From: Diplonema papillatum | Lineage: Eukaryota > Euglenozoa > Diplonemea > Diplonemida > Diplonemidae | Assembly (NCBI GenBank): GCA_030068145.1 | Contig: JAPJBO010000486.1 | Span: 105,606-169,605 of the forward strand | Length of the DNA: 64,000 nt | Reading direction: 5' to 3' | Shown here: piece after piece, positions 32,046 through 60,407 of the stretch | Layout of the letters: each line of letters starts with the position of its first letter | How positions within the stretch are numbered: position 1 is the first letter of the stretch | Position numbers and translations under genes: made by a program | The notes under the pieces: model-generated | Databases searched by the model: none | What the model was told of the DNA's origin: nothing | What the model saw: the letters and a program-made list of their open reading frames with translations, nothing else

Positions 32046-32520
32046 CTGAGGGATAGAACGTGAGAACAACCGAGAAACCGAAAACAAGGTCGCAGCCTGC
32101 GTACAACTGCTTGGTCCACGACGCAAAGTCGTGTCCTCGATGGAACATATATGATCCCGCACGCACGCACGTTTTGGTCTCGTCTCACCTCCGCCCATCT
32201 CTCCGGTCAACCCCACCTCCGACAGAGTCAGAGTTCGAGCCAGCGTAGATGTAAGTGCATACCGTTGCAGCCGCACGTTGCACGCCCATGGCGGCGTGCT
32301 TGCTCGTGGCTTTGCAGTGGCGGGCGTATATCGTTGAGCTTTGACGTGCCGATCGATCCTGAGGGGAGGAAGGGCTTCGCTTCTCGACACTTTGCCTTTG
32401 CCAGTTTGAAGCACCCGTGGCCAAGTGCGGTGTGGCAGGGGGAGACTGTGCTGGACCCAGTTCTTTCGTACACCTCTCGAAAGCATGCCCTGCGCCCCTG
32501 AGCTCCTCAACAACTTTCAT

Positions 32521-35415
32521 TCCGCAATATTTATGCGCAAATCAGTTTCAGCTTAAATGAGCCGAATCACTGAACCCCCTGAAAACGACCTCAGCTCGAC
32601 TACGCGGTAAGGACCGCCTTGATGTTACTTCGATTAAACTCACGCTAATCTGAAACGAGTGGGGCAGCAGGACATCGCGTCCCTCCCCGATGCGAGCTGA
32701 TTGCCGGTTGGATACAAGCAACTGCACCTTTGTATCCCGACACTCTGTCTCTGGGTGCTTCCGGATTACGCGCAATCAAATCGGGGGTTTCAAACATGAT
32801 GCTAATTAAACCAACGGGCAACAGGGTTTATGGCGCTGGACTTAACCTCTGTGGCGCTCGTTGGGTCCATACACCCTCCTCACGACCGTCGGCGTGCAGC
32901 AGAAGCTGGACAACGGAATGAAACGCAAAGGGTTTGATCGGACAACAGAGCACAATCCACCGACATGGAAAGAATGGACACTCTTTGCGTCACCCTGCTC
33001 AAAAGGAACTGGTTCAAGCCGAGGGACGCACACGCGAAAGACAAAATGAAAACAAAAAAAAAACGCGCTAAAAAAGAATGGGATGGAGGGGGGTGCCACG
33101 AAAAGAAATCACAGGCAAACGATTGAAAGAGCGGACATTCAAAACGATTGAAGGGGCACGGGGGAGGTGGGCTGTAAGCAGGGAGGGGGGTGCGCTACGG
33201 CGTCGTATAGCTATGCTTGGGTTCTCGTCTCTGGGGTTTGTCCGAAGGACACCAGAGCGAAGTGGAATGGTGGCTTAACGGGTCGTGTGCACTGAAGCTG
33301 AAGCGCATGAGAGGGGAGGCAAAGAAAACGGGGAAAGATCATGCTTTGGCAGTGGGCGCGGTACGACGGGGCACAGAAGCGGCCGGAACACGAATTAAAC
33401 GGGCTGTTGCGGCTTCCTCGGGGAGCCTGATTTTCGCGGCTCCTCCTGTTCTAGTATCTTCGCGCATTTTGATGCACAAATACTCGAGGGGCTGCCTTGT
33501 GCTTCGAAGGCTAGAGGGGGAGAAACAGTACACCTACAAAGTGGGTCGTTTTTGTCGAGCGTTGGCGCCCGCCATTGAATGTGTTTCGTGTGGGCTACAG
33601 CACATTTACCTCCTTTGATCTTTTGCAATGAATATTTGCCTCCTTTGATCTTTTGCAACTGGCAGTCTCCTCAAGTATTTCCAGAGTGCTTTTACAAAAA
33701 AATAAAATGGAAATAGAGGGACTCTCGCAAGGGCCGCGCCGCCGTGTGCGCGTTTGCGAGAGTTTCCTCTTTCTATTCTTCGTTGAAGACGCGCCAACAC
33801 CGCGGTATCGGTCCTGCCGTGTGTCCCTTCGCCGGACCGCCGTCTCGCTTCCCTTTCTCCTAGGTCAACAGACATTTCCCTTATTTTTCTGACAAAACGT
33901 AAAAGCTTTCTGTTTCCTGCCGCTCGCGGGGGATGAACGTCCAAACAGTCAAATAAAGGGGGCCGGGGGGTGGCGAGAATAGTGAAGAAGGGGGCAAAAG
34001 AAGAGTTTCCGGAAGAAAAAAAAAAGGAAGCGAAACGTATAAAAAGGAGGCAGCAACGGGGGAAGCGAGAGGAGGGGGTACGAGGGGGAGTATACCTATT
34101 CTGCGTCCTTCTGTCCTTTTTCCTGTTGCTAAAACGACGTTGCCAAGGCGATATCGAGGCTAGCACGTCTGGGGTTGCCTTTGTTGTCTGATCACGTGTG
34201 TACGATTCATTCATAGATTCGGATTGCGAGTAGGAAAGGCCGCGGGCAGTAGCGAGCTCTTCTTTCTTCAGCATTGCATGTCCAGTAACAACAACACGAT
34301 CAAGAGAAGAACGTCTTACTGTTTGCACTTGGGGGTCCCCCCCCGCCCATTCCCCCGCACCCCCCAAGAAAATACAAAATAATTGGGGGCGTTCGAGAGA
34401 AAAGTCTTTGCACTTGATGATGGGTGTGATTTGGGGAGGCTCGACAGTGGTCTCGCCTCGCGTTGGTGCCGAGAGTCGTAGCGGTGTGGGCGTGTAGCAC
34501 GAAGGCCGCGACTCCTGGGGTCCATTCCGCTTCCTGGAAAAAGTCAGCGGGAGACACCGCGCAACCGCTTCGTTGACGAATCGTTTCCTCTCGCGGGTGC
34601 AAAGAGAATGTGCTGTGCGAAAAAAAAAATGAGAAAAAAAGACGCAGTGACAAAACGACAGCAAACGAACGGCTGGGGGGAACAGCCGCCGGGGGGGGGG
34701 GCAAAAACAGAAGCGACAGGGGGGGGGTGATGGGTGGGGGGAGCAAGAAGGCGAGCGAGAAACGCGCGCGGTGCGTCTGCGTGCGTCCAGCTGCATGGAA
34801 GATGCATTTCCGCGCTCAGCGGGGGGCTGGCAGGGGTCGATACGCAGCATCTTACGCTTCCTGTCGGTTACGGGTGGTAGTGGATCGAGGAGGAAGTGAA
34901 GCCGCGTGGGTCTTAATCACAATGGAGTCGCTCTACTGAACAGCGTTCTGGCCTTGCTTGGAGGATCGGTACTGAAGATCGTGTATCGAGCAAAGCTTTT
35001 AACCTTATGCCCTACGCGAGATTTCTGTTCCCGCTGAGCTTGCCGTAGGACACCCTGCGTAAATGTGGAACAGATGTGCCGCCTCAGCCAAACTGCCCCA
35101 TTCTTCCTCAGTCAACCGCTCCATTCATGTTCTCGTCACGACAGACCGGACGCTGAGACCGGACAAAAGACGTGAAAAGCAAGCATATTAGTGCAGCACG
35201 TACGGTTCTGACGGTTGCCCTAAGACAGCTTGTTGGAAACCTTTCGTGCATTTTTGCGAAAAAGACGCCAGGTCTCTCAGGCAGTCGTGGCAGATGGTTA
35301 TCGACCTGCCGAATCACATTTCCTACCTATGCTGGGAAGATCTCCAACATCAAAAAGTATGTCGCAAGCATCATGCTTGCTCACTTTGCATTTTCGTTCC
35401 GCTCATGCCCGCCCG
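32521..35415. other. purine/pyrimidine-biased non-coding stretch
   Basis: About 2.9 kb without a recognisable gene. A minus-strand frame of 414 codons (33606..34850) is probably spurious: it is rich in Pro, Arg, Phe and Ser from polypurine/polypyrimidine tracts and has no domain. A 22-bp direct repeat (CCTCCTTTGATCTTTTGCAA) lies at ~33609-33658. Confidence 0.5.
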
Positions 35416-35419
35416 CAAG

Positions 35420-35605
35420 CCCGCAAGAGCTTCTGCCCTATCAGCTTTTGACGGTAGTGTAGTGGACTACCGTGGCTGTAACGGGTAACGGGGAATTAGG
35501 GTTCGATTCCGGAGAGGGAGCCTGAGAAACGGCTACCACATCTAAGGATGGCAGCAGGTACGCAAATTGCCCAATAGCAACACTGCTGAGGCAGCGAACT
35601 TATGC
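35420..35605 (+). rRNA. 18S (SSU) rRNA fragment
   Basis: Contains the universal GTAACGGGGAATTAGGGTTC, then GATTCCGGAGAGGGAGCCTG, AGAAACGGCTACCACATC and GGCAGCAGG..CGCAAATTGCCC, preceded by CTGCCCTATCAGCTTTTGAC. About 185 nt of the 5' domain is present, with no flanking SSU sequence. After CCCAAT it reads AGCAACACTGCTGAGGCAGCGAA. GAGGCAGCGA at this place is, as I recall, characteristic of Euglenozoa (most eukaryotes have GAGGTAGTGA). A dispersed rDNA fragment, not a working gene. Confidence 0.88.
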
Positions 35606-35996: not shown

Positions 35997-38725
35997 ACAG
36001 GTTGCACGCCCCGAATTCGAAATCATACCACCACCTCGGCGACCGGCTCCGTGGTTTCCACGACAGGCTCAGCAGATTCATCGGCCGGCTTCTTCAAGAT
36101 GACCAGCTGGATGACGAGCATCAGGACGGCTGCGACACCGATGAGGATCAGTCCGATCCACCAGAAGTCCCAGCTCTCGTCGAAGAGAGGAGCGCACACG
36201 AACGAGAATCGGGTCATCAACTTGATCAGAATGTTGAGAGCCGGACCAGACGTGTCCTTGAACGGGTCTCCCACCGTGTCACCACACACAGCAGCCTTGT
36301 GGCAGTCAGTTTTCTTGCCCTGCACGACTCCGTCAACCTTGAAGTTGCCGGCCTCGATCCACTTCTTGGCGTTGTCCCAAGCACCACCCGTGTTGCTCAT
36401 CTGCACACCCAGCAGGTAGCCTGAGGCGATGGCACCAACCAGCACTCCGACCAGGCAGTGCGAGCCGAAGCCGAAACCCATGATCAGCGGCGCGAAGATC
36501 GCCAGAACTCCAGGCATGAGCATCTCTCTCAGCGACGATGCGCAGCTGATCGTGATGCATCTCGTGTAGTCCGGCTTGTGCGTAGGGTCAGTCAGGATCA
36601 GCGGGTCAGCACGGAACTGACGACGCACCTCGTGCATCATCTCCTGAGCAGCCTTGTTCACACTCAACATCGTCATGGCTCCGAAGATGTACGGAAGCAG
36701 CGATCCGATCAGAACACCGATCACAACAACCGGGCGCATGAGGTTCACCTTCTCGATTCCCGCAACGCGGGCGAAGGCAGCAAGGAGCGAGATCGCACTC
36801 AGCACAGCACTACCGTTGGCGAAACCCTTTCCAGTGGCAGCAGTCGTGTTACCCAACGAGTCGAGGGCGTCAGTGTAGTCACGAACCCACTCAGGCAACT
36901 CACTCATCTCCGCAATACCACCAGCGTTGTCAGCAACAGGGCCGAAAGCGTCCGTAGACATCGTCACTCCGAGCGTCGACAACATACCGCACACAGTAAT
37001 CGCAGTGCCGTAGAAGCCGCACAGGTAGTAGGCGCCCAGCACAGCAGCCACGATCAGCAGAAGCGGCACAACCGTCGAGTACATACCCATACCGAGACCC
37101 TGGATGATCACGGGGCCAGGTCCGAACTCGGTGGCACGGCCAATGGACTGAGTCGGCTCCTCAGTGTGGCTCGTGAAGTACTCTGTCACCATGCCGATGA
37201 GGATACCAACAACGAGACCGAGCATGATGCATCCGAACAGACGGGGACCCGGGTTCAGCTGGTTCTTCGGGTTGTTGGGGACGTCGTCGAGTGCATCAGA
37301 TTCATCCTCAAAGAAGAACACACAGAGGAAGAGGGTCGTGATCGTGATCAGGATGCCTGCGGCGAAGATGTTCAAGCGCAACGCCTTCAGCAAGTCGTCA
37401 AGCGTCGGGATCGAGCCGTCAGCCTTCACTCCGACACGGACGTACACAGTGCACACAATGCTCCAGACAAGGCCGATCGACACAATGTAGAACGGGAGGG
37501 CAACACCTTTCTTTCCGAACTCAGGGGCGCCCATCACGCACGCAGCCACGACAGCTCCGACGAACGACTCGAACAAGTCAGCACCCATACCGGCAACGTC
37601 ACCCACGTTGTCTCCGACGCAGTCAGCAATCGTGGCGGGGTTCTTCGGCGAGTCCTCAGCGAGCGCGTTGTCAACCTTCCCGCACAAGTCAGCTCCCACG
37701 TCGGCAGCCTTCGTGTAGATACCACCACCCACACGTGCGAACAGAGCCACAGCAGACGAACCGAAACCGAATCCACCAAGGGAGTTGGTGTTTCCGAACG
37801 TCACGTAGCACAGAGCCAGACCGAAGATACCGAAGCTGACCACGGCAAGACCCATGCACGCGCCGGTGCGGAACGCCACTCCCATTCCGTTCGAGACACC
37901 AGCGTCCCTGTCCGAGTAGCACGCTGCCGCAGTCCTGCAGTTACCCTCCGTGGCAATGTGCATACCGAAGTACCCGCACGACGCAGACAGGAACGCACCG
38001 ATCAAGAAAGACACAGACGTCGACGGCACCCAGTCGTTCTCCTCACCGTCAACCGCAGTGTACAGGAAGATCCACAGAAGAGCCACGAAAGGGGCCAACC
38101 ACATGTACTCTTGGTGCAAGAACGTCATCGCAGCGTCGTGGATGATCTCCGCAAGACGGCTCATCTCGTCGGTACCACGCGGCTGCGCCAGCACACTGCT
38201 CGCGTAGAAGCACACGGCCGCGAATCCCGCGAAGGAGCACGCCATGGCTGCCCACACAGCAGCATACGGAATTTCGTACGTGCATTCGTAGTGCACAGGG
38301 ATGTTCCCCGCCGGCACTCCGCCGGCAACCGTAGTGATGATGCAGGCACTCGTTCTCTCGGGCAGCGTAAGAGGCTGGCCGTTGATACCGTTCATCTCGG
38401 GAATCGGCTCGAACTGTCCAACGAAGTTCTTCCAATGGCGCGACGTCAGGGCCACAGCCTCAGGGTGGAACTTGTCAGATCGGTCGAAGTCATCGGTGTA
38501 CTCAGCGAACAGGCACAGAACAATGGCACACGCTGACAGCAACAGCATCAGGACACCGAGGACGGTGTACGTCGGCGCCGAACGTCCCGGGACCTCATTC
38601 CACGCCGGCATGACAGCCTCCTCCTTCTCGAGTTCCATTTCCCCTTGCGGAGTCATGGGACTCTTCGCTTCCTCCGTTGGCAATGGCTCAGCCATGTTTG
38701 CTATCCTTTTTTTTGATGACCTGCG
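35997..38725 (-). repeat. 2.73-kb duplicated block carrying H+-PPase (copy 1)
   Basis: Matches 53828..56556 with no difference in the stretches I compared, and at the protein level throughout. It includes only ~26 bp beyond the stop and ~30 bp before the ATG; outside, the flanks are unrelated. The 5' edge on the coding strand coincides with CGCAG|GTCATC, a plausible (trans-)splice acceptor. Confidence 0.9.
36023..38695 (-). CDS. K+-dependent membrane H+-pyrophosphatase, copy 1
   Basis: An 890-residue, intronless, true ATG to TGA protein (starts MAEPLPTEEAKSPM). H+-PPases (VP1/AVP1 family, about 16 membrane helices) hydrolyse PPi and pump H+ into vacuoles or acidocalcisomes. The first catalytic signature lies near residue 331 ([20 protein letters not shown], then [20 protein letters not shown]). 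[11 protein letters not shown] at ~621 has Ala in the position that marks K+-dependent type I enzymes. AWDNAKKW (~775) and [14 protein letters not shown] (~806) complete the Mg-PPi site. It is longer than the ~770 typical residues, through its N-terminal cytosolic extension and luminal loops. A second copy lies at 53854..56526. Confidence 0.95.
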   Translation of the reverse strand: MAEPLPTEEAKSPMTPQGEMELEKEEAVMPAWNEVPGRSAPTYTVLGVLMLLLSACAIVLCLFAEYTDDFDRSDKFHPEAVALTSRHWKNFVGQFEPIPEMNGINGQPLTLPERTSACIITTVAGGVPAGNIPVHYECTYEIPYAAVWAAMACSFAGFAAVCFYASSVLAQPRGTDEMSRLAEIIHDAAMTFLHQEYMWLAPFVALLWIFLYTAVDGEENDWVPSTSVSFLIGAFLSASCGYFGMHIATEGNCRTAAACYSDRDAGVSNGMGVAFRTGACMGLAVVSFGIFGLALCYVTFGNTNSLGGFGFGSSAVALFARVGGGIYTKAADVGADLCGKVDNALAEDSPKNPATIADCVGDNVGDVAGMGADLFESFVGAVVAACVMGAPEFGKKGVALPFYIVSIGLVWSIVCTVYVRVGVKADGSIPTLDDLLKALRLNIFAAGILITITTLFLCVFFFEDESDALDDVPNNPKNQLNPGPRLFGCIMLGLVVGILIGMVTEYFTSHTEEPTQSIGRATEFGPGPVIIQGLGMGMYSTVVPLLLIVAAVLGAYYLCGFYGTAITVCGMLSTLGVTMSTDAFGPVADNAGGIAEMSELPEWVRDYTDALDSLGNTTAATGKGFANGSAVLSAISLLAAFARVAGIEKVNLMRPVVVIGVLIGSLLPYIFGAMTMLSVNKAAQEMMHEVRRQFRADPLILTDPTHKPDYTRCITISCASSLREMLMPGVLAIFAPLIMGFGFGSHCLVGVLVGAIASGYLLGVQMSNTGGAWDNAKKWIEAGNFKVDGVVQGKKTDCHKAAVCGDTVGDPFKDTSGPALNILIKLMTRFSFVCAPLFDESWDFWWIGLILIGVAAVLMLVIQLVILKKPADESAEPVVETTEPVAEVVV

Positions 38726-39231
38726 GGGAGCAATTATTTATGGAGGTTCGCCTGTTAGCTCCGGAGTACTGTGCACTTGGTGTTGTGGTTCCCAGGGAAA
38801 GGGATCGGCGAGACTTAGTTCTGGGAATCCCTGGAGGGGGGGTATGTTGCACATCTTCTTGCGGTGTAATTCCCCAGTGGTTTCAGATGGCAATCGGCTT
38901 CGCTTTCCTCCCAAGATATTTAGCTTGAACAAGGGAAGAACACCCCCGCAATAATAGGTAGTCCTCCAGTCAGTTATCAGCTTAGCGTCAAAATCAACAA
39001 CTCGCATGTGTGTTGTGCCCTTTACGAATGGACCGTGTAGGAGTGATTGGCAAGAGCCTTGCTGACGAGGTAACGACCGCCTGCTTCACAAACACCCCCG
39101 TTTTCACACTTCCTTCTATACCTGCCTCGACAAGGACCGACCGATCATCCTCCATTGTGTTACCGTCGATCCCGAAGGACGATCAGTTTGGTGTCTTGCG
39201 ACCTTTGTTTGTTTGGTAAGGAGTTTTGGTG
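38726..39231. other. intergenic between H+-PPase copy 1 and the TIR-bounded LINE cluster
   Basis: No gene seen. The 5' region of H+-PPase copy 1 should lie here; its sequence differs completely from that upstream of copy 2. Confidence 0.5.
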
Positions 39232-39375
39232 ACTGGGGCGATCCACCTAATTTCTAGCAGAAAAAATCACAGAATTCCAAATCAATTCACAACTTTTCAC
39301 AACTTTTCGTCGTCTTGTTGCGTTAGTGGGGAGTCATTTGCAAGCAAATGAGTACCACACTATGCCAGCTTTTCG

Positions 39376-42300
39376 CTACGTGACTCCAGAAGGGTCACTT
39401 TTTCCGCGCTTTCGGCGCGGCGCAACTCTAGTCGGTTGCAACTGTTGTTGGCAGTTGCTCACGATCTCATAATCCGAAAAGGAATCGGAGTCCTCGCTTT
39501 CTCGTTTGCGCCGATAGGCACGCCGCGATGCGGAGGACGTGAGTAGCCGGGAAGAGACGGCGGGAGGGCGCGTTCGTTGTGTGACCCGTGGAGGGTCGGA
39601 ACCAGAATCAGAAAAAGAGCCCGAGTCAGGGCCTGCCATCGAAGAGGGCCGGGCGGGGCCGGGTGGGCGCGGTGTGTTCGGGCCGGCGAGGCCAGTGCCG
39701 TCGTCGCCGAGATCGGCGCGTCGTCGTCGTGCGCGCAGCGCGGCTGCGGGAGAGGTCGTGGGGGTGCAAGGCGCGGGTCGCTTCCTGCCTGCTGGCGGGG
39801 GGGCGCGCTTCGGGGGCGATTTCGTCGTCCGCCTTCTCCGGCCACGGCTGGTAGGTGTCCCCGGTGGGGACGGCGCGCGCCGCTTCCGGCCTGTGAGGCC
39901 GTCGCTCTCGCCGCGACCGCCACCGCCGCCGCCGCCGCGACCGCCACCGCGTGCGCCGCCGCGTGCGCGGCCGCGACCAGTGCCGCGGCCGCCGCCACCG
40001 TCTCCGCCACTGTCGTCTCCGCCGCCCCGGCCGCCGCGGCCGCGGCCACGGCCGCGGCCGCCATGACCACCGCCACCCCCGTCGCCACTGCTGCTGTCGC
40101 GGCCAGCACCACCCCTGTGATGCCCCCGTCCGCAGCACGCGTCGGCGTTCGGGCAGGTCCCGCATCGCGTCAGCCGATGCGCCCGGCAGCATTGAATGCG
40201 CAGGCCGTCGTCCGGGCGGTGGTGCACCTGGCAGCACTGGTCAACTACAAGGCTGTAGTTTCTTCGCATGCCAGTGCACACCGCGCACTTCTGCTTTGCG
40301 CAGGCATCGCAGACCGACTGCGTGCGGAGCAGAGGGTCCGCCTGCGCAGCCGGTACAAGCACGGGAAGGCGCGGGCGTTGCGGCAGAGGGGTGGGCACGT
40401 CCCAGCGCAGCGAACGCTGTGCCCGCCGCGCCGCGTCGTACTGCGGGAACACGTCCCCGCCCCAGTTCTTCCCGTCCCCGGCAGCTGCCCGCGGAAAGCT
40501 CGCCTCCAGCACCCCGTGCGTCTCCTCGCCCCCGGCGAAGCGTGGGCGAGGTGTCAATCCCCCCCACAGCATCGGCGCCCCCAGGGTCCTCATCGAGCCC
40601 ACCCGGACCTTCCGCTCGGCAGGCAACGGCGACGGCAGCTGCAGGTCTCGGCACAGGCGGCACAATGTCGACAGCATCGTCCAGAGGGTCTTCCCCCTCT
40701 GGTTGGCGGCGAGCCTTCGTATTCCCGGGGGGGCAGGGACGTCGACCCCGGTGTGGACCTCGAAGTCCACTGCCAGCTCAACGCACGACACCTCGCCTGC
40801 GTTCGTCCACCTCAGTGCCGACAGCCAGCCCTTGAGCGCCCGCATCGCACGGCCGCCGTACGGCCATCTCGGCGGCTCATCCGGAAGGCGGTCGAAGTCG
40901 AACAGGTGTTGCACCGCCGGCAGCGGCGCAGCTGCGTGCCAGGGGTGCATCGGTTGCACCGCGGAGAGGCGGCGTCGCTCCGCCTCCACGCGTGCAGTGT
41001 ACACCGCCGCCATGAGGCGGTGAAGGGCCGCGACCTCCACCCGCATTCCTTCGACAATAACCCCATGCACACGCGTGCAAGACGGCCACCTCGCCCGGTC
41101 CGCCCGCAGGAGTTCGGCGAAGCAAGGACGGCCGCGAATCTCGTCGTAGGCGGGGCACTCCCACCACAGGTGATCCGCTGTGTCCTGGACGCCCAGGTCG
41201 CAGTCCCTGCAGCCGCGGTCCAGCGGCGGACGCTGAGGTTCCGAAGAGGAGGATTCGGAGACGTGCTCGTCAAAGCTGCCGGTCGTATCAGAGGCGGTCG
41301 ACGACACGGACGCCGAGGAGCTCGGCGACCCGTCTGTCCCGGCCGCCCCTCCGTTCGCACGCGCATTCCGTCCCCACCGCGCAGCGAGGAACACACCCCC
41401 GGACAGAATCACCGCCAGCGCACGTTTCTCGCCAGCGTCAGCCGTCGCTAGGCGCAGCTCGTTCGTACGCCTGCAGTCCACCCCTGCCTGCACGCCGTCG
41501 TAAGACGGCCGTTGCCTCGCAAGCTGCGTCCAGGTCGTCTGCCGTAGCCGTGCCCGGATGGCGTGGTGCCTCTCGCCCCTCTCCATGTCGAGAAGCCGGC
41601 GGCCCTCGAGCGCCGCGGTCGCAAAGTCGTGGCCTTCGAAATCGATGCCCGCGACCGTGAAACCGTCAGAGATGGCGATCCCGACAGGTCCCAGGCGCGC
41701 CTTCGGCAACAACACACCGTGCCGGCTGTAAAGCCGGGCGATGTTCAGCATGCGGGCGTGTACGCGGGGGAGCCTCTCGCACGTGTCGAAAAGCGAGCAC
41801 AGGATCCTGTACGGCCGAGCCAACAGTGGGTCCATTCGGTGGGCTTTCGCCAGGATGGCCAGCACCGCCGTCACATTCCTCGACGGATGCTTCGTCCCGA
41901 AAGCTCCCTTCACTACCCGCGACCGCAGCCCCCTGAGGCACGTCTGCGTGTACCCCTCGTACGAGCACCCCGCCAGCACGCTTCCGAGGACATTGGAGCT
42001 CGCCACCTCGCAGCGGACATCGAATGGAAGGCGCGAGGTGCTCAGCCTGTCCAGCAATGCGTTATGGGCCTTCAGACGCGCGTCGTTGGTACGTTCCGCC
42101 TGAACGCTCGCGACACTCGTACGCACACCGAGGATCTTCGCCGCCGTCGCTGTCGGTATCGTCTCGTCGCCGACTGCCAGCACGCTCGTATAGGGCCGCC
42201 GCCGACGCTGCCGCACCGTGCCCGCGGGGATCCCCATCGCCAGTGTCTTCGTCATGTTCAGCCGCATCCCTGTCAGGGCGCAGAACTGTGCGATGACGTC

Positions 42301-44946
42301 GACCGCCTGCTGCAGCTCGGACTCCACGGACGCGAAGAGCGTGGCATCATCCGCCAGCGACTCCGACGAAACCTCCGGTACGCGCGCCGACACCGCTCGG
42401 AGCACTATCGACAGCAAGGCGTTGATGAGGATCACCGAAAGTGGGCACCCCTGCAAGATACCGTTGGTGACCTCAAACTCGGAACCCACGCCCAGCGGCA
42501 GCTTAAACCGGCGCTTCATCCCACGGTACATGGCGCGCAGGGGGCGCAGGATGCGCGCGTCGAGGCCCATCCCTTCGGCAAGCCGGAGAACGATCCCCTG
42601 CGGTACCCGGTCGAAGCACTTCGCGAAATCGAGTGCGACCATGTACAGCGACTTCGACTCGTCGAGCAGCGTCTCCTCGATCAGCGTCGTCAGCTCCATG
42701 AGGACGTCGTCCGTCCGATGCCCTCTGCGGAAGCCGTGCTGCGACGGAAGAATCCAGCCGTCCTGCCACTCCATGACGTCTTGCAAACGCCTGCAGGCCC
42801 ATAACCGATAGACGCAGCTCGTCACGGTGATTGGCCGCAAGTTGGTCGGCGAGGTGTCGTCGGTCTTTGGTATGAGCGACACCAACGACGTCAGCATACC
42901 CTTCGGCCACTCCCCTCGCTCCTCCACCAGATTGAAAAGCGTCGCGAACCCGTCCAGCAGCTCGTCGGGCAGGGCCTTCAGTTCGTCCAAACGCCAGCCG
43001 TCCACCCCACACGCCGTAGTCTTCTTCTTCCGCTTGTTGAGAACATCCCGTAGCTCCCTCCCGGTCACATCCCGCAGGTCCATCTGGCGGCGGGGAATAA
43101 AACCCTCGAAGGCCCTGCGGAACGCCTCGTACTCGGGCTCTGGGCGTCCTTCCCCGTACATGCGCAGGATCGGGTCCCACGCCTCCTGCAGCACCTCGTC
43201 CATCTCCTCGACGTTGGCGGTGAGTCTCCCGTCCGCTGTCCGCACCGCATCGGCCGCCTGCCCCGGACCCCCCCGCAGCATCGACACAAGCGCCCGGCGA
43301 TCCGTCCCAAACATCGTCAGCTGCCTCTCCTGTTGCTGCCTCTTCCGTACCCTCGCCGCAGCCGCGTTGAATCTCGCACTGCGCAGTCGTACGTCGTGCA
43401 AGTAAACGCGAGCGACCTCTGCGCTCGGCGGGTCGGAGGGGGGCGGCTCGCCGACCCCGCCGCCACGGATCACGGCGAGACAGCGCAGCCAGCACAAGCG
43501 GAGTTCTTGGGGCACCTGGAATGGTCCGGACGCTTCTAGGCGAGCTCGCTGGTAGACGTAGTGCTCCAGACGCCGGATCGCATTCCCGTGCCTCAGCTCC
43601 GTCTCGCACGCCACGCCCCGGTCCGGCGTACTCCTCGCCGCAACGCGAGTCATCTTCAGCTCCGAGTTACCGCGGCCGGTGTGCGCACGTCTCTCACAGG
43701 CAGGCATCCCGCTGCGGTCTAGCAGGTACTGCTCGCACAGAGCGGAGAGCGCCATCCACGCCCCTTCGACGTCCCCCTCGCGGGCGGCGGCGCACACGGC
43801 ATCCAGCCTCGGGACCTCGACGACCCTACCTGCCGGCTTCACGGGTATCGCTCGCGGCACGTTGAACCTCCATGTCTGCTGTTCGAACGCCTGCACCGCG
43901 AGTCGAATCCGGACGCAGCGGTGGCCCCTCACGCTCCCTACCCCGATCGTCTCGCATGCAACAAAGGCGGACGCGGCCGCGCGGTTCATCAGGGCGTAGT
44001 CGATGCGCGTGCCGGACGTGTTCGTGCCCGTGTAGGTGTTGGGCGGTCGTCCTCCCTCGCACGCCGCCTGCAGCTGCGCTGCGTCCGTCCACCCGTTGCT
44101 GAGGGCATGCCGAAGCGCCGGCGACCGCTCAACGTCCGTGTTGAAGTCGCCCATCACGACCGCCGGGGCCTGCCCCACCATGGCCTGCGCCTCGAAGAGG
44201 ACCGTCTGCAGGAGCCGCTCCCGGGACGCCGCTGCCGTGTTCCCCGATGGGGCGTAGACGGCAAAGAAGTGTACGAACATCCGTCCGACCCCCGTCGCGA
44301 TCATCGTGTGGATGACCCGGTTGCGCACTTCCTGCAGCGATTCGTTGGGCAGCAGGTGGGCCACCCCCGGCTGCCTGGCAAGCACAACGACTCCTCCCCC
44401 CTTCTGCCCGGAATGCGGGTTTCCGTGCGGACAGTGCTTGCTGCGCTTCGGCGGTTGCGGCGGCCCCCACAGCGTCTTCCACCTCGACCCGTCGACGGCG
44501 CACGGTCTCGCGAGATAGTCCGTCGCCTGCGCCTGCTGCAACTCGCCCATCGACGTCTCCAGCACCGCAATCGCGTCTGCGGGCGCCATCGCCCGCACCT
44601 CGTCAATGTGCAGGGCCAGCGAGCCAACATTGACTGCAGCAAGAGTGAGATCGCGCGGGGGACCAGGGTTCGGGTGGACGTCCCCGCACCTCAAGAGCCG
44701 TTCCCCCGCGGCGTACGCATACTCACGGGCGTCGTGCTTCGACGGTAGCCACGCACATTCAACACGCTCACGCCGCAAGGCAACCCGGGAACCCACGCCC
44801 CGCGCGCGGTGCTGCATACGCGCGGTAACGTACCGGGCTGCGCCGGCCGGTCGACGGCGACGTCCGCGGCGGAAAGCCGCCGCGGCGGTCGAGGCGAGCG
44901 CTCGGCGCCCGGGGCCAGGGTTGGGATGCACATCCCCACATCGCAT
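39376..44946 (-). CDS. LINE ORF2: tandem 2A motifs, APE endonuclease, reverse transcriptase, zinc knuckle
   Basis: About 1856 residues from the ATG at 44946 (the frame is open further up to the UGA at 45001). Order: 2A-like CGDVHPNPGP; an Arg-rich spacer; a second 2A; then the endonuclease directly after it, with LETSM, VVMGDFN (~266), GTRIDYAL (~318) and GHRC (~343). The RT has ALDFAKCFDRVP (~771), GILQGCPLSV and SLADDATLF (~866), so its catalytic Asp residues are intact. A zinc knuckle CRDCDLGVQDTADHLWWEC lies at ~1246. Unusually, ~600 residues follow, with a Cys-rich segment (CDACAKQKCAVC) and an RGG/GRG-rich stretch. The protein should nick the target and copy element RNA there. It ends at TAG 39376. 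Confidence 0.9.
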   Translation of the reverse strand: MRCGDVHPNPGPGRRALASTAAAAFRRGRRRRPAGAARYVTARMQHRARGVGSRVALRRERVECAWLPSKHDAREYAYAAGERLLRCGDVHPNPGPPRDLTLAAVNVGSLALHIDEVRAMAPADAIAVLETSMGELQQAQATDYLARPCAVDGSRWKTLWGPPQPPKRSKHCPHGNPHSGQKGGGVVVLARQPGVAHLLPNESLQEVRNRVIHTMIATGVGRMFVHFFAVYAPSGNTAAASRERLLQTVLFEAQAMVGQAPAVVMGDFNTDVERSPALRHALSNGWTDAAQLQAACEGGRPPNTYTGTNTSGTRIDYALMNRAAASAFVACETIGVGSVRGHRCVRIRLAVQAFEQQTWRFNVPRAIPVKPAGRVVEVPRLDAVCAAAREGDVEGAWMALSALCEQYLLDRSGMPACERRAHTGRGNSELKMTRVAARSTPDRGVACETELRHGNAIRRLEHYVYQRARLEASGPFQVPQELRLCWLRCLAVIRGGGVGEPPPSDPPSAEVARVYLHDVRLRSARFNAAAARVRKRQQQERQLTMFGTDRRALVSMLRGGPGQAADAVRTADGRLTANVEEMDEVLQEAWDPILRMYGEGRPEPEYEAFRRAFEGFIPRRQMDLRDVTGRELRDVLNKRKKKTTACGVDGWRLDELKALPDELLDGFATLFNLVEERGEWPKGMLTSLVSLIPKTDDTSPTNLRPITVTSCVYRLWACRRLQDVMEWQDGWILPSQHGFRRGHRTDDVLMELTTLIEETLLDESKSLYMVALDFAKCFDRVPQGIVLRLAEGMGLDARILRPLRAMYRGMKRRFKLPLGVGSEFEVTNGILQGCPLSVILINALLSIVLRAVSARVPEVSSESLADDATLFASVESELQQAVDVIAQFCALTGMRLNMTKTLAMGIPAGTVRQRRRRPYTSVLAVGDETIPTATAAKILGVRTSVASVQAERTNDARLKAHNALLDRLSTSRLPFDVRCEVASSNVLGSVLAGCSYEGYTQTCLRGLRSRVVKGAFGTKHPSRNVTAVLAILAKAHRMDPLLARPYRILCSLFDTCERLPRVHARMLNIARLYSRHGVLLPKARLGPVGIAISDGFTVAGIDFEGHDFATAALEGRRLLDMERGERHHAIRARLRQTTWTQLARQRPSYDGVQAGVDCRRTNELRLATADAGEKRALAVILSGGVFLAARWGRNARANGGAAGTDGSPSSSASVSSTASDTTGSFDEHVSESSSSEPQRPPLDRGCRDCDLGVQDTADHLWWECPAYDEIRGRPCFAELLRADRARWPSCTRVHGVIVEGMRVEVAALHRLMAAVYTARVEAERRRLSAVQPMHPWHAAAPLPAVQHLFDFDRLPDEPPRWPYGGRAMRALKGWLSALRWTNAGEVSCVELAVDFEVHTGVDVPAPPGIRRLAANQRGKTLWTMLSTLCRLCRDLQLPSPLPAERKVRVGSMRTLGAPMLWGGLTPRPRFAGGEETHGVLEASFPRAAAGDGKNWGGDVFPQYDAARRAQRSLRWDVPTPLPQRPRLPVLVPAAQADPLLRTQSVCDACAKQKCAVCTGMRRNYSLVVDQCCQVHHRPDDGLRIQCCRAHRLTRCGTCPNADACCGRGHHRGGAGRDSSSGDGGGGGHGGRGRGRGRGGRGGGDDSGGDGGGGRGTGRGRARGGARGGGRGGGGGGGRGESDGLTGRKRRAPSPPGTPTSRGRRRRTTKSPPKRAPPPAGRKRPAPCTPTTSPAAALRARRRRADLGDDGTGLAGPNTPRPPGPARPSSMAGPDSGSFSDSGSDPPRVTQRTRPPAVSSRLLTSSASRRAYRRKRESEDSDSFSDYEIVSNCQQQLQPTRVAPRRKRGKSDPSGVT
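44659..44682 (-). other. second 2A-like motif DVHPNPGP
   Basis: Located directly before the APE domain (PPRDLTLAAVNVGS follows) and preceded by LPSKHDAREYAYAAGERLLR. 2A peptides make the ribosome skip the Gly-Pro bond. DVHPNPGP variants are known from APE-type LINEs, and skipping here would release the endonuclease-RT protein with an N-terminal Pro. Confidence 0.85.
44911..44934 (-). other. first 2A-like motif DVHPNPGP
   Basis: Preceded in the same frame by LPSSHDARADGDAAGARLMR, a clear duplicate of the leader before the second 2A. Only ~9 residues separate it from the ORF2 ATG, too few to fill the ribosome tunnel as 2A activity needs. It therefore makes sense only if translation enters from ORF1. 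Confidence 0.8.
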
Positions 44947-45000
44947 CAAGCGGGCTCCCGCAGCATCGCCGTCCGCGCGGGCGTCGTGGCTTGACGGCAG

Positions 45001-45003
45001 TCA
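45001..45003 (-). other. in-frame UGA between ORF1 and ORF2, candidate readthrough site
   Basis: ORF1 and ORF2 share one frame with only this UGA between them (GCC UGA CUG CCG). In the duplicated leader the aligned codons are GCG UGG CUA CCG, so the UGA sits where Trp is expected. UGA followed by CU is a leaky context in several systems. UGA also ends several real genes in this window, so a full code change is unlikely. Confidence 0.6.
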
Positions 45004-46863
45004 GGCGCGCGAGCACGTGACACACACGCTGGCGCCGCACTCTTCGCACCTCCTCTGCATGCGGCCCTTCTGGATCGTCTTCTGACAATCGCCGCATTCA
45101 AACTCCGCTGGAGCCCGCACCCCATCGGACAGCTCGTGCCGGTGACCGGCCTTCTCACCCTCGACCGGCTCCTTCAGACGCTGGCGCGGGGGGGACAGCA
45201 TCTCGACCACACCGGCCACAGCTCGCTGGATTAGCGACTGTCCCGCTTCCGCCGGCTGTGTCACCTCCTCGTGCTTCCGCTTGTTGGACGGAGCCGGCTC
45301 CGGATCCGTATGAACTTCGGCGGCGGGCAGCTTCATGCGCCGTCTCTGGCCGGGCGTCGTCGGGAGGGAGGAGGCGAGGCGCTTAGAACGCGGCCGCGGC
45401 ATCTCGCCCTTGTCGTAGTCGTTGACGACAATGAAGGGCGACCCTTCCCTTTCGATGACGCGGAACGGCGGGCCGCCATCCCCCGTCACCACGCACGTCC
45501 GCGATCCGCTTCTCACGAAGGATGTCGTGACCGTCGCAGCCCAGCCAGCGAGCCTGAGCAGCATCTCGACGTCGGCCTCGTGTTCTCGCGCCCTGGCACC
45601 GGACACGAGGTACCGCAGTTTCGTTTCGAGCGGGGGCGCCGCGTGCTCACCAGCAGCCGCCCGCACGCGCGCCAGCATCCCCGACCCGCGCGCCCGCAGC
45701 AGAAGACGCCTTCCACCAAGAACGACACCGCCCCCGGCCTCGCCGCACTTCTTCAACAACGCCAACGCGGTCTCCCGCGTCACGTCCGCATTTAATGCGA
45801 CGACCGGCGTGGCGTCGCGCGCTTCCTTCCCGACTGGTCGCCAGAAGCAGCCATCCCTACCCGACCCCTGCAGGATGGCGTCCACGTGTCCCGCAGGTAC
45901 GCGAACCAGGAGTTCACGGCGGCCCTGCTGCGACGTCACGCCCCACATGGAGGCCGCTTCGAGGCGCGTCTGCGCCGAAGTCGCCTTCACCGCCCGGCGG
46001 CAGAGACGCGTCATCGCCGTGTGCGGGTCCTTCTCCACGCATGCCCACGTCTCTGCCGTCGCGTGCTTGCGTGCCACGGTGAGGACGAGCACCGCCGTGG
46101 CCGCGCCGGGCTTCCGTCCGCCTTCAGTCGCCGCCTGCCGGACCTTCCCTACCTTCCCGGCCTGCCGAACGTCCCCGTGCGTCCACAGGTGCATCCGCTG
46201 CACCACGCCTGTTTCCATGAGGACGTGGCGCGCCTCGCTCTTCTCGAACGGCTGTCGGCACAACACCGCGTACCGAACCTCCTCTGTCGCCAGCGCCGCA
46301 GCATCGACCGCCACGCCCATCGCCGTCTCGGCCTCATCGACGCTGGGTGCGACCCAGAGCCCCTCCTTCTTCGCCTCGAATGAGCACGACTCGAGGATCG
46401 GCACGTTCCAGTCGAAACTGTGCACGCCGCACACGGTCGCCTTACGTCTGACGACGTCTACCCACTGCTGATGTTGCCGCTGCTGCGGTTGCTCTTGTTG
46501 TTGCGGGCGGTTCCGCCGTTGCTGTTGCTGTTGTTGCTGGTGCGGTTGCTGTTGTTGCTGGTTCGGTTGCGGTTGCTGTTGTTGCTGTTGCGGTTGCTGT
46601 TGCTGTTGCTGTTGTTGCTGTTGCGGTGCTCCTTCACGATCCTCGCCTTGGTACTTCGGCCGTCCTTGCGACAGCGCCGGTTCCCCCTGGCTCGTCTCGT
46701 TCCGCTGCTCCGCCTCCAGGAGGCTGATCGCCGCCTCCAGGAGTGTCAGCGCCACCCCTCGCTCCTCCTGACTTCGAGCCGCCGCTGCTGCCCGGCTAGC
46801 CCGCTCTGCTGCTTCTCCGAGGCGGTCGAGCATCGACGATGGCGCCGCCGAAAGCGCCGCCAT
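45001..46863 (-). CDS. LINE ORF1 protein (Gln-rich, C-terminal zinc-binding)
   Basis: The frame opens at 46953, but its first ~16 codons belong to the 3' tail of the neighbouring copy B. The first ATG inside copy A is 46863 (MAALSAAPSSMLDRLGEAAE), giving 620 residues. A glutamine-rich tract lies ~80-135, then a long basic middle region typical of LINE ORF1 RNA-binding proteins, though no RRM is obvious. The C-terminus is CGDCQKTIQKGRMQRRCEEC, followed by GASVCVTC, a C2-C2-C2 zinc-binding end. It probably coats the element RNA. The original 5' end is likely lost. Confidence 0.75.
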   Translation of the reverse strand: MAALSAAPSSMLDRLGEAAERASRAAAAARSQEERGVALTLLEAAISLLEAEQRNETSQGEPALSQGRPKYQGEDREGAPQQQQQQQQQQPQQQQQQPQPNQQQQQPHQQQQQQQRRNRPQQQEQPQQRQHQQWVDVVRRKATVCGVHSFDWNVPILESCSFEAKKEGLWVAPSVDEAETAMGVAVDAAALATEEVRYAVLCRQPFEKSEARHVLMETGVVQRMHLWTHGDVRQAGKVGKVRQAATEGGRKPGAATAVLVLTVARKHATAETWACVEKDPHTAMTRLCRRAVKATSAQTRLEAASMWGVTSQQGRRELLVRVPAGHVDAILQGSGRDGCFWRPVGKEARDATPVVALNADVTRETALALLKKCGEAGGGVVLGGRRLLLRARGSGMLARVRAAAGEHAAPPLETKLRYLVSGARAREHEADVEMLLRLAGWAATVTTSFVRSGSRTCVVTGDGGPPFRVIEREGSPFIVVNDYDKGEMPRPRSKRLASSLPTTPGQRRRMKLPAAEVHTDPEPAPSNKRKHEEVTQPAEAGQSLIQRAVAGVVEMLSPPRQRLKEPVEGEKAGHRHELSDGVRAPAEFECGDCQKTIQKGRMQRRCEECGASVCVTCSRA

Positions 46864-46903
46864 CGCCGTGATGTGTTCCCCCCGCTCCCTTGCCAGTCTC
46901 CCC

Positions 46904-48822
46904 CACAACTTTTCGTCGTCTTGTTGCGTTAGTGGGGAGTCATTTGCAAGCAAATGAGTACCACACTATGCCAGCTTTTCGCTACGTGACTCCAGAAGGG
47001 TCACTTTTTCCGCGCTTTCGGCGCGGCGCAACTCTAGTCGGTTGCAACTGTTGTTGGCAGTTGCTCACGATCTCATAATCCGAAAAGGAATCGGAGTCTT
47101 CGCTTTCTCGTTTGCGCCGATAGGCACGCCGCGATGCGGAGGACGCGAGTAGCCGGGAAGAGCCGGCGGGAGGGCGCGATCGTTGTGTGACCCGTGGAGG
47201 GTCGGAACCAGAATCAGTAAAAGGGCCCGAGTCAGGGCCTGCCATCGAAGAGGGCCGGGCGGGGCCGGGTGGGCGCGGTGTGTTCGGGCCGGCGAGGCCA
47301 GTGCCGTCGTCGCCGAGATCGGCGCGTCGTCGTCGTCGTGCGCGCAGCGCGGCTGCGGGAGAGGCCGTGGGGGTGCATGGCGCGGGTCGCTTCCTGCCTG
47401 CTGGCGGGGGGGCGCGCTTCGGGGGCGACTTCGTCGTCCGCCTCCTCCGGCCACGGCTGGTAGGTGTTCCAGGTGGGGACGGCGCGCGCCGCTTCCGGCC
47501 TGTGAGGCCGTCGCTCTCGCCTAGGCTGCGACCGCCACCGCCGCCGCCGCCGCGATCCCCGCCGCGACCGCTGCCGCGACCGCCGCCGCGTGCGCGGCCG
47601 CGACCAGTGCCGCGGCCGCCGCCACCGTCTCCGTCACTGTCGTCTCCGCCGCCTCGGCCGCCGCGGCCGCGGCCACGGCCGCGGCCGCCATGACCACCGC
47701 CACCCCCGTCGCCACTGCTGCCGTCGCGGCCAGCACCACCCCTGTGATGCCCCCGTCCGCAGCACGCGTCGGCGTTCGGGCAGGTCCCACATCGCGTCAG
47801 CCGATGCGCCCGGCAGCACTGAATGCGCAGGCCGTCGTCAGGGCGGTGGTGCACCTGGCAGCACTGGTCAACTACAAGGCTGTAGTTTCTTCGCATGCCA
47901 GTGCACACCGCGCACTTCTGCTTCGCGCAGGCATCGCAGACCGACTGCGTGCGGAGCAGAGGGTCCGCCTGCGCAGCCGGTACAAGCACGGGAAGGCGCG
48001 GGCGTTGCGGCAGAGGGGTGGGCACGTCCCAGCGCAGCGAACGCTGTGCCCGCCGCGCCGCGTCGTACTGCGGGAACACGTCCCCGCCCCAGTTCTTCCC
48101 GTCCCCGGCAGCTGCCCGCGGAAAGCTCGTCCCCAGCACCCCGTGCGTCTCCTCGCCCCCGGCGAAGCGTGGGCGAGGTGTCAATCCCCCCCACAGCATC
48201 GGCGCCCCCAGGGTCCTCATCGAGCCCACCCGGACCTTCCGCTCGGCAGGCAACGGCGACGGCAGCTGCAGGTCCTGGCACAGGCGGCACAATGTCGACA
48301 GCATCGTCCAGAGGGTCTTCCCCCTCTGGTTGGCGGCGAGCCTTCGTATTCCCGGGGGGGCAGGGACGTCGACCCCGGTGTGGACCTCGAAGTCCACTGC
48401 CAGCTCAACGCACGACACCTCGCCTGCGTTGGTCCACCTCAGTGCCGACAGCCAGCCCTTGAGCGCCCGCATCGCACGGCCGCCGTACGGCCATCTCGGC
48501 GGCTCATCCGGAAGGCGGTCGAAGTCGAACAGGTGTTGCACCGCCGGCAGCGGCGCAGCTGCGTGCCAGGGGTGCATCGGTTGCACTGCGGAGAGGCGGC
48601 GTCGCTCCGCCTCCACGCGTGCAGTGTACACCGCCGCCATGAGGCGGTGAAGGGCCGCGACCTCCACCCGCATTCCTTCGACAATAACCCCATGCACACG
48701 CGTGCAAGACGGCCACCTCGCCCGGTCCGCCCGCAGGAGTTCGGCGAAGCAAGGACGGCCGCGAATCTCGTCGTAGGCGGGGCACTCCCACCACAGGTGA
48801 TCCGCTGTGTCCTGGACGCCCA
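46904..48822 (-). mobile_element. LINE copy B, 5'-truncated
   Basis: Covers only the last third of ORF2: it starts inside the zinc knuckle (frame 48823..46982) and shares the same 3' end. The 5' break, after ...GTCCTGGACGCCCA, is followed by AATCAATTCACAACTTTT, the same sequence that borders copy A's 3' end. Confidence 0.9.
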
Positions 48823-50744
48823 AATCAATTCACAACTTTTCACAACTTTTCGTCGTCTTGTTGCGTTAGTGGGGAGTCATTTGCAAGCAAATGAGTACCA
48901 CACTATGCCAGCTTTTCGCTACGTGACTCCAGAAGGGTCACTTTTTCCGCGCTTTCGGCGCGGCGCAACTCTAGTCGGTTGCAACTGTTCTTGGAAACTA
49001 CTGACGATTTCATAATCCGAAAAGGAATCGGAATCTTCGCTTTCTCGTTTGCGCCGGTAGGCACGCCGCGATGCGGAGGACGCGAGTAGCCGGGAAGAGC
49101 CGGCGGGAGGGCGCGATCGTTGTGTGACCCGTGGAGGGTCGGAACCAGAATCAGTAAAAGGGCCCGAGTCAGGGCCTGCCATCGAAGAGGGCCGGGCGGG
49201 GCCGGGTGGGCGCGGTGTGTTCGGGCCGGCGAGGCCAGTGCCGTCGTCGCCGAGATCGGCGCGTCGTCGTCGTCGTGCGCGCAGCGCGGCTGCGGGAGAG
49301 GCCGTGGGGGTGCATGGCGCGGGTCGCTTCCTGCCTGCTGGCGGGGGGGCGCGCTTCGGGGGCGACTTCGTCGTCCGCCTCCTCCGGCCACGGCTGGTAG
49401 GTGTTCCAGGTGGGGACGGCGCGCGCCGCTTCCGGCCTGTGAGGCCGTCGCTCTCGCCTAGGCTGCGACCGCCACCGCCGCCGCCGCCGCGATCCCCGCC
49501 GCGACCGCTGCCGCGACCGCCGCCGCGTGCGCGGCCGCGACCAGTGCCGCGGCCGCCGCCACCGTCTCCGTCACTGTCGTCTCCGCCGCCTCGGCCGCCG
49601 CGGCCGCGGCCACGGCCGCGGCCGCCATGACCACCGCCACCCCCGTTGCCACTGCTGCCGTCGCGGCCAGCACCACCCCTGTGATGCCCCCGTCCGCAGC
49701 ACGCGTCGGCGTTCGGGCAGGTCCCACATCGCGTCAGCCGATGCGCCCGGCAGCACTGAATGCGCAGACCGTCGTCAGGGCGGTGGTGCACCTGGCAGCA
49801 CTGGTCAACTACAAGGCTGTAGTTTCTTCGCATGCCAGTGCACACCGCGCACTTCTGCTTCGCGCAGGCATCGCAGACCGACTGCGTGCGGAGCAGAGGG
49901 TCCGCCTGCGCAGCCGGTACAAGCACGGGAAGGCGCGGGCGTTGCGGCAGAGGGGTGGGCACGTCCCAGCGCAGCGAACGCTGTGCCCGCCGCGCCGCGT
50001 CGTACTGCGGGAACACGTCCCCGCCCCAGTTCTTCCCGTCCCCGGCAGCTGCCCGCGGAAAGCTCGTCTCCAGCACCCCGTGCGTCTCCTCGCCCCCGGC
50101 GAAGCGTGGGCGAGGTGTCAATCCCCCCCACAGCATCGGCGCCCCCAGGGTCCTCATCGAGCCCACCCGGACCTTCCGCTCGGCAGGCAACGGCGACGGC
50201 AGCTGCAGGTCCTGGCACAGGCGGCACAATGTCGACAGCATCGTCCAGAGGGTCTTCCCCCTCTGGTTGGCGGCGAGCCTTCGTATTCCCGGGGGGGCAG
50301 GGACGTCGACCCCGGTGTGGACCTCGAAGTCCACTGCCAGCTCAACGCACGACACCTCGCCTGCGTTGGTCCACCTCAGTGCCGACAGCCAGCCCTTGAG
50401 CGCCCGCATCGCACGGCCGCCGTACGGCCATCTCGGCGGCTCATCCGGAAGGCGGTCGAAGTCGAACAGGTGTTGCACCGCCGGCAGCGGCGCAGCTGCG
50501 TGCCAGGGGTGCATCGGTTGCACTGCGGAGAGGCGGCGTCGCTCCGCCTCCACGCGTGCAGTGTACACCGCCGCCATGAGGCGGTGAAGGGCCGCGACCT
50601 CCACCCGCATTCCTTCGACATGCACACGCGTGCAAGACGGCCACCTCGCCCGGTCCGCCCGCAGGAGTTCGGCGAAGCAAGGACGGCCGCGAATCTCGTC
50701 GTAGGCGGGGCACTCCCACCACAGGTGATCCGCTGTGTCCTGGA
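48823..50744 (-). mobile_element. LINE copy C, 5'-truncated at nearly the same point as B
   Basis: Nearly identical to copy B and shares changes absent from A. A 9-nt deletion near 50619 removes three codons. Its ORF2 end differs locally (TTCTTGGAAACTACTGACG at ~48988). The 5' break lies within 8 nt of B's, followed by a 10-nt filler and AATTCACAACTTTT. Confidence 0.9.
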
Positions 50745-50754
50745 TCCGCGGCGG

Positions 50755-51047
50755 AATTCACAACTTTTCACAACTTTTCGTCGTCTTGTTGCGTTAGTGG
50801 GGAGTCATTTGCAAGCAAATGAGTACCACACTATGCCAGCTTTTCGCTACGTGACTCCAGAAGGGTCACTTTTTCCGCGCTTTCGGCGCGGCGCAACTCT
50901 AGTCGGTTGCAACTGTTGTTGGCAGTTGCTCACGATCTCATAATCCGAAAAGGAATCGGAGTCTTCGCTTTCTCGTTTGCGCCGATAGGCACGCCGCGAT
51001 GCGGAGGACGCGAGTAGCCGGGAAGAGCCGGCGGGAGGGCGCGACAA
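50755..51047 (-). mobile_element. LINE copy D, ~290-bp 3' fragment
   Basis: Has only the 3' UTR and the last ~65 codons of ORF2. Its 5' break is followed by ACAACTTTTCACAACTTT, then unique DNA leading to the right TIR, so the tail repeat occurs on both sides of the whole array. Confidence 0.88.
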
Positions 51048-51155
51048 CTTTTCACAACTTTGCAGACCTTTGCAGAGCTCTGCAGAACAATGTGTCAAAC
51101 CTAATTATGAATAGTTGTGATTTTTTGTGCTAAAAAATAGGTGGATCACCCCAGT

Positions 51156-56556: not shown

Positions 56557-56669
56557 CTTTTGAACTGTTGCCGGTTTGATGGTTGCCGATTGAATAGCAA
56601 TTTTGACTCTTTCGACAAATTTGAGGAATAAAACTTTCGCCCTAACTTTCTTATGGCTAACCTCAACCC

Positions 56670-56972
56670 AGGGCTTACGCTCCACGTGTGGAACGTGTGG
56701 ATTTCCACACGTTAATTCTTTTTGGATTTTGTTCCCCCACGTGTGGATCCACAGGTACCACATGTGGATTTTGATTTATTGGTCCACATGCAGGGGAGTC
56801 TAGGCCCACTAGCGGTCAAGGCCGCACAGCCAGTTGTCGCCAAGTCAGTAGCGACACTATTTTTTTTGCCGTCGCACATGAGGGGGAAGGTTTTTTTCCC
56901 CCTCGAACCTTAAGCGCCCATACGTGGTCCACACGTATTTTCTCTGAGACCGAAAACGGAGCGTAAGCCCTG
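56670..56972. mobile_element. hAT-type MITE, 303 bp
   Basis: Perfect 15-bp TIRs CAGGGCTTACGCTCC (56670..56684) and its reverse complement (56958..56972). An exact 8-bp target duplication CCTCAACC flanks it (56662..56669 and 56973..56980). The 8-bp duplication and CAGGG ends fit the hAT superfamily. Inside, CCACGTGTGG/CCACACGT motifs repeat in both orientations, like subterminal transposase-binding sites. It is non-autonomous. It lies ~110 bp upstream of the H+-PPase copy 2 block. Confidence 0.9.
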
Positions 56973-60204: not shown

Positions 60205-60286
60205 CTCCCATTTCAAGCTGAAGACGAGAGGCTGAAGGCCGTCTGCCGTTTCAAGCTGAAGACGAGAGGTTGAAGGCCGTCCCAGC
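60205..60286 (+). repeat. two direct ~40-bp repeats
   Basis: TTTCAAGCTGAAGACGAGAG followed by G(C/T)TGAAGGCCGTC occurs twice in tandem upstream of the minisatellite. Confidence 0.85.
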
Positions 60287-60344
60287 GCCCAGATAAAACA
60301 AGTACACACGTCCGCGACGGGGGCCCACCCGCCTGAGCGATCTG

Positions 60345-60391: not shown

Positions 60392-60407
60392 CTCCCGGAC
60401 AGATCTC

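Follow-up and report, generated by a model that had tools for sequence, protein, structure and literature searches.

We analysed a 64,000-nucleotide (nt) stretch of the genome of the marine protist Diplonema papillatum (assembly GCA_030068145.1, contig JAPJBO010000486.1, positions 105,606 to 169,605 of the forward strand), hereafter the window, which contains a long interspersed nuclear element (LINE) read on the minus strand. Its two open reading frames, ORF1 and ORF2, lie together with two 2A motifs in one frame on this strand. The frame runs from 46965 to 39376 (2530 codons) and holds only two stops, a UGA at 45003-45001 and a terminal TAG, which agrees with the original prediction, made from the sequence of the window and given without a strand. 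The element has the features of an APE-type LINE: a reverse transcriptase (RT) domain (RVT_1, E 2e-23), an endonuclease (EN) domain (Exo_endo_phos, E 3.4e-13), 40 scored copies dispersed across many contigs, and 5'-truncated copies with a common 3' end inside the window. The C-terminal end of ORF1 is a Cys-rich zinc-finger-like tail, after which the UGA follows. Both 2A motifs read DVHPNPGP and are spaced 252 nt (84 codons) apart, and the two units of leader and octapeptide share 23 of 30 residues, which bears out the predicted relatedness of the leaders.

Table 1. Features of the family A LINE, in window coordinates.
Feature	Position	Strand	Remark
ORF1	45001..46863	-	From first ATG at 46863; frame open from 46965; putative start codon
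UGA stop, context UGA CUG CC	45001..45003	-	40/40 scored copies; 75/76 by junction pattern
ORF2	45000-39376	-	Same frame as ORF1; stop TAG
Leader 1, LPSSHDARADGDAAGARLMRCG	44935..45000	-	Protein-level constraint versus family B
First 2A octapeptide DVHPNPGP, p14 = His	44911..44934	-	Read from sequence
84-residue Arg-rich stretch between the two skipping sites	44662..44913	-	Putatively released
UGG codon matching the UGA position of unit 1	44749..44751	-	Read from sequence
Leader 2, LPSKHDAREYAYAAGERLLRCG	44683..44748	-	Compared with leader 1
Second 2A octapeptide DVHPNPGP, immediately 5' of endonuclease	44659..44682	-	Read from sequence
Exo_endo_phos (APE-type) endonuclease domain	43957..44631	-	E 3.4e-13
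RVT_1 reverse transcriptase domain	42199..42873	-	E 2e-23
Rest of ORF2: EN-RT and C-terminal Cys/His-rich and basic parts, stop TAG	39376..44658	-	

The D. papillatum genome (271 Mb, 2910 contigs) was searched for copies of the window LINE, termed family A. The DNA search yielded 103 candidates, of which 40, being 96-100% identical, were scored, and all 40 carried UGA. A census with seven junction patterns, in which any triplet was permitted at the stop position, found UGA in 249 of 251 junctions: 75/76 in A (one AGA), 27/27 in B, 21/21 in C, 6/6 in the C variant C2, 18/18 in D, 37/38 in E (one CGA), and 65/65 in F. These patterns demand exact flanks including the CT after the stop, so that the census bears on the codon and not on the CT itself, and old copies are missed; they define ORF1 junctions, and some C- and D-type junctions run into other 2A modules. 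Copies within one family are recent and not independent, and the weight rests on the comparison between families.

Individual loci gave the same codon. UGA was present at 28/28 family B loci, three of which (L079-L081) have small deletions nearby; among degenerate B-like fragments, L083 retains TGA, and L084-L089, having no intact junction, were uncounted. The family C locus L090 was without the ORF1 junction. TGA was found in L094, L110, and L112 of family D, while the L111 segment missed the junction. For family E, the 12 segments fetched first were all without the stop (eight began just behind it and four missed it), and TGA was present in eight refetched segments (L116-L123) and in L097. 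Among 12 family F segments (L124-L135), alignment placed TGA in the 2A frame in L124, L127, L131, L133, and L135; L126, L128, L129, L130, and L132 start just behind the stop, and L125 and L134 show no junction. A single copy of a family H (L096) has TGA ACG, 340 open codons, and a different endonuclease type, and was placed outside the UGA-CU types.

UGA-CU stands just 3' of a homologous ORF1 zinc finger in six LINE families (A to F) and in a further ORF1 type, I, and the ORF1 tails of these seven junction types (A, B, C, D, E, F, and I) align on their cysteines. A recent UGG-to-UGA change, which the original prediction had offered as an alternative to readthrough, is contradicted by the six further junction types, and this candidate was rejected because UGA-CU occurs in all seven types examined. 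Family B is 53% identical to A in ORF1 (375 aligned residues) and 54% in the endonuclease (194 aligned residues), and is built alike, in the order zinc-finger tail, UGA, LPSHHDASAGGDAANLRLLRCGDVHPNPGP, linker, LPSRHSARTASGTARLRLRRCGDVHPNPGP, and endonuclease. Despite this divergence, the frame between the UGA and the first 2A is conserved in B. The family B ORF1 is annotated on its own as P0012.

In C, D, E, and F, the ORF1 tail leads to the UGA and then to an open frame up to a 2A, one of which was present in each stretch read (DVETNPGP, DIEENPGP, DIEQNPGP, and DVEQNPGP, respectively). Tandem 2As 5' of the endonuclease were seen in only two of the six families, A and B; what all six have in common is the UGA-CU junction. 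The split between A and type C is deep, with 47% identity over the RT stretch between A and the type C protein P0022. In E and F, an AlkB-like 2-oxoglutarate-Fe(II) oxygenase domain (PF13532; E-values 8.3e-13 in L113 and 6.4e-13 in L116) lies between the UGA and the 2A. The F module stands in frame behind at least three ORF1 types, namely E-type (L113), C-type (L114), and type I (L124, L127); the frames of L113 and L114 were read through to the 2A, and that of type I was deduced from alignment. As judged from these sequences, the UGA/2A architecture is that of a clade of elements, not of a single LINE.

Further 2A-bearing sequences were also found. L053, L054, and L055 have a 2A, with the UGA junction absent from the stretch fetched. 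Another 2A-bearing family (L058, L092, L095) has two adjacent 2A-like motifs and no nearby stop; both motifs are intact in L058, and the first is degenerate (HPGP) in L092 and L095. One scan each of viral contigs and genome contigs gave no relatives at the DNA level outside D. papillatum. Relatives with NPGP, known from protein alone, were P0008 and P0009 in EukProt and P0016, P0018, and P0021 in metagenomes; P0018 has two NPGP motifs 89 residues apart. The metagenomic P0020, 48% identical in the RT stretch, has an OTU domain (PF02338) 5' of the endonuclease and no NPGP.

The triplet after the UGA is CUG in A, B, E, and I, CUC in C and C2, and CUA in D and F (L131 too). UGAC is reported to be leaky and UGA-CUA to be the type II readthrough context (PMC3542737), which D and F match with UGACUA. 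Type II calls for CGG or CUA after the UGA and for a stem-loop about 8 nt downstream, the 3' structure being described for most, not all, cases (PMC3542737); family A has UGA-CUG, and no such stem-loop appeared in its folds. The family A junction may act like type II readthrough, and we do not class it as type II.

Beyond the UGA, the 2A frame is without stops for 106 codons in A and 134 in B (to the second 2A), and, up to the 2A, for 154 in C, 101 in D, 324 in E, 337 in F, and 379 in the C-type/F chimera L114. The two other sense frames hold 2+3 stops in A, 3+2 in B, 2+4 in C, 1+1 in D, 8+7 in E, 11+7 in F, and 10+9 in L114. Mononucleotide shuffles were without stops in 3.6% (C), 10% (D), 0 of 2000 (E), and 0.05% (F) of cases. 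The E variant L097 differs from L116 by 10-nt and 71-nt deletions, whose sum of 81 keeps the frame.

Constraint on the protein was detected past the stop. Over leader 1 and the first octapeptide, A and B share 24 of 30 residues, and their 29 differences fall 7/4/18 on the three codon positions (P 0.0014, binomial with 1/3), the proportions of synonymous (pS) and nonsynonymous (pN) differences being 0.775 and 0.161. Between E (L116) and F (L113), the 121 AlkB codons upstream of the first Met of F differ by 8/5/17 (P 0.007; pS 0.167, pN 0.054). The constraint thus lies on the 2A context in A and B and on AlkB in E and F, and the linkers drift yet remain open. Conserved in-frame coding past a conserved stop, the general mark of programmed readthrough, was thus present, with some weaker sub-tests given below.

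A degenerate 2A pattern had 513 matches in the genome versus 0 for the reversed control, and the UGA and frame recur in other families, so that the arrangement is not attributable to chance. DVHPNPGP departs from the core consensus (D/G/C/N)(V/I)ExNPGP in that His, a rare residue at p14, replaces the canonical Glu, which is found there in families C to F. Natural StopGo (ribosome-skipping) sequences with His at p14 are reported to be more than 95% active in reticulocyte lysate (PMC12846837), and two yadokariviruses have GDVHPNPGP, described as their 2A-like motif (PMC10817634). The upstream residues p6-p11 are described as important for StopGo (PMC12846837); in the window they are RLMRCG and RLLRCG. 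The motifs are putatively active in Diplonema. The UGA of unit 1 does lie opposite the UGG of unit 2, as had been pointed out, but this match carries little weight, since family B has Leu at that place.

We consider, with good confidence, that the conserved UGA-CU, the open frame, the constraint past the UGA, and the lack of a usable AUG in B and F are best explained by programmed readthrough of the UGA and subsequent StopGo, which would release ORF1, a basic peptide, and the EN-RT. The fixed UGA and the conserved frame also support the ORF1-ORF2 fusion by readthrough that had been proposed, an event that presumably takes place in vivo. The original prediction had named as refuting findings a different stop or a frameshift in most intact copies, or a frame not conserved from the UGA to the first 2A; the sequences showed the opposite on both counts. 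Most ribosomes would terminate at the UGA and yield the ORF1 protein, while a minority, aided by the UGA-CU context, would decode the UGA and stay in frame. StopGo at the first 2A would free ORF1 with a 30-residue tail, and the second 2A would free the small basic peptide (84 residues in A, 112 in B), so that the EN-RT would begin with Pro at the edge of the endonuclease domain. Readthrough would set a high ORF1:ORF2 ratio, and the 2A would do the separating job that a protease has in retroviruses.

Several observations weigh against this interpretation. All DNA evidence is from one genome. UGACUA occurs in D and F only, the other types having CUG or, in C, CUC, and the folding, which covered family A only, revealed no downstream RNA structure (four folds against shuffles, z 0.08, 1.33, -0.36, and 0.38). 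For A and B, 17% and 15% of the shuffles, respectively, were stop-free up to the second 2A. Within the 22 codons that separate the UGA from the first 2A in A and B, another sense frame is open as well; the other frames hold one stop in all there, so this stretch alone is no evidence. The 18 codons 5' of the AUG of A, taken alone, have 10 of 19 differences at third positions (P 0.065), which is suggestive only, and little constraint was detected in the first 100 codons after the UGA between E and F (P 0.14) or between C and D (P 0.14). In addition, the D-type/F chimera L115 is out of frame.

ORF2 might instead be translated on its own, either from an mRNA carrying a trans-spliced leader or through termination-reinitiation, with a CUG immediately after the UGA as one possible start. 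Euglenozoa are described as adding a spliced leader to pre-mRNAs by trans-splicing (PMC10161547), and reinitiation is used by, or has been proposed for, LINEs such as SART1 and L1 (PMC5972666). In-frame AUGs follow the UGA at codon 19 in A, 101 in C, 36 in D, and 17 in some E copies, so that independent initiation may be possible for C and D. The AUG of A, the only one in frame up to the first 2A, leaves just M-R-C-G before the octapeptide, although p6-p11 matter for StopGo (PMC12846837); the original prediction had likewise judged it too close to the first 2A. CUG stands immediately 3' of the UGA in A, B, E, and I, but a CUG start cannot be general because C has CUC and D and F have CUA, and, of eight E segments, four have ATG at codon 17 and four have GTG. 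Family B has no Met between the UGA and the second 2A, its first Met being inside the endonuclease, and in family F the first Met comes at codon 221, within AlkB and past an HKD motif that we take to be catalytic. Ordinary AUG initiation therefore cannot yield an intact ORF2 in B and F. Moreover, an independent start would not require ORF2 to be in frame with ORF1, but the two share an open frame even though the A and B linkers differ by 28 codons. We regard independent translation as unlikely.

It is much less probable still that splicing joins ORF1 and ORF2 by taking out the UGA in a 36-nt GT-AG intron, as the NCBI model P0001 would have it. This model omits 12 codons around the UGA (window 45001-44935) and so hides it, and gene finders often invent short introns to bypass stops. 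By reading of the sequence, a 36-nt stretch can be excised with GT-AG borders, as found in most D. papillatum introns (PMC10161547). One exact-match pattern for the spliced join had 0 matches in the genome; with this result and UGA in 75 of 76 family A copies, the reverse-transcribed RNA retains the stretch. A UGA read as sense, by general reassignment or as selenocysteine, would look alike, leaving a single in-frame UGA and a conserved continuation. However, the 12 long non-LINE ORFs picked in the window (two of them near-identical copies) end in TGA (6), TAG (3), and TAA (3), with TGA-CT at none of these ends; the element has one in-frame TGA versus 35 TGG codons, and no selenocysteine insertion sequence (SECIS) reached the Rfam gathering score in the window, the level at which it was searched. 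Sense decoding is thus highly improbable. Since copies within a family are near-identical, one inactivating mutation in a dead master element could also have been copied many times, but seven junction types with different flanks share the codon and its CU context, constraint persists past the stop, and EN, RT, and ORF1 stay open, which makes this origin scarcely credible.

The surroundings of the LINE were also recorded. It belongs to a head-to-tail array (window 39298-51068) with element 3' ends at 39298, 46904, 48841, and 50769, in which the full-length copy directly follows truncated copies (46982-48829 and 48919-50757). L010, L015, and L028 also have a sister 3' end before them, as if inserting beside their own tail. 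Near-identical long ORFs at 36023-38737 and 53854-56775, presumably encoding vacuolar H+-pyrophosphatase, flank the array, and a related ORF lies at 30366-32516. The window further contains a small-subunit rRNA gene fragment (35364-35594, Rfam E 3e-36) and a tandem repeat (60260-62389) whose three forward frames are all open for more than 600 codons.

The D. papillatum genome paper reports about 2500 gene models of retroelements and defers a rigorous identification of transposable elements to later work (PMC10161547). In searches of the open-access literature, no case of LINE readthrough, of 2A combined with readthrough, or of diplonemid LINE recoding was listed. The route to a LINE's second protein is known for few elements. 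We propose, as probable, that a diplonemid LINE clade sets its ORF1:ORF2 ratio by UGA-CU readthrough and that StopGo replaces a protease; in some families, tandem 2As would free a small basic peptide, and in others readthrough would join an AlkB-type oxygenase to ORF1 before the EN-RT is released by StopGo. If this is true, the clade couples stop-codon readthrough to StopGo, and two opposite termination events occur about 30 codons apart in one frame: a stop is ignored, and then a chain is released without a stop. Six families, a seventh ORF1 type, and at least 251 junctions serve as natural replicates in which the cis-requirements can be tested directly.

L1Tc of Trypanosoma cruzi and sea-urchin and other animal LINEs are 2A-bearing APE-type elements; as far as we are aware, they differ from the Diplonema LINE in its UGA between ORF1 and 2A-EN-RT, its His at p14, and its tandem 2As. 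2A-bearing LINEs are documented (PMC4981915), and they share with it the APE-type endonuclease, the RT, and an in-frame 2A upstream of the enzyme. SART1 and L1 likewise have to translate two ORFs from a single RNA and do so by termination-reinitiation (PMC5972666), which needs an ORF2 start codon, whereas B and F lack a suitably placed one. Multiple-2A picornaviruses also have several NPGP sites in one frame, in an arrangement that, as described in PMC11512398, includes no stop codon. Type II readthrough in alphaviruses, tobraviruses, and furoviruses likewise uses UGA followed by C, and D and F have exactly its UGA-CUA (PMC3542737); family A differs in its CUG and in that no stem-loop stands out. 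Murine leukemia virus Gag-UAG-Pol is similar in joining a structural protein, one stop, and an RT polyprotein in frame (PMC5009743, PMC3542737), but gammaretroviruses use UAG with a 3' pseudoknot, whereas the Diplonema LINE has UGA-CU, no detectable structure, and a 2A in place of a protease.

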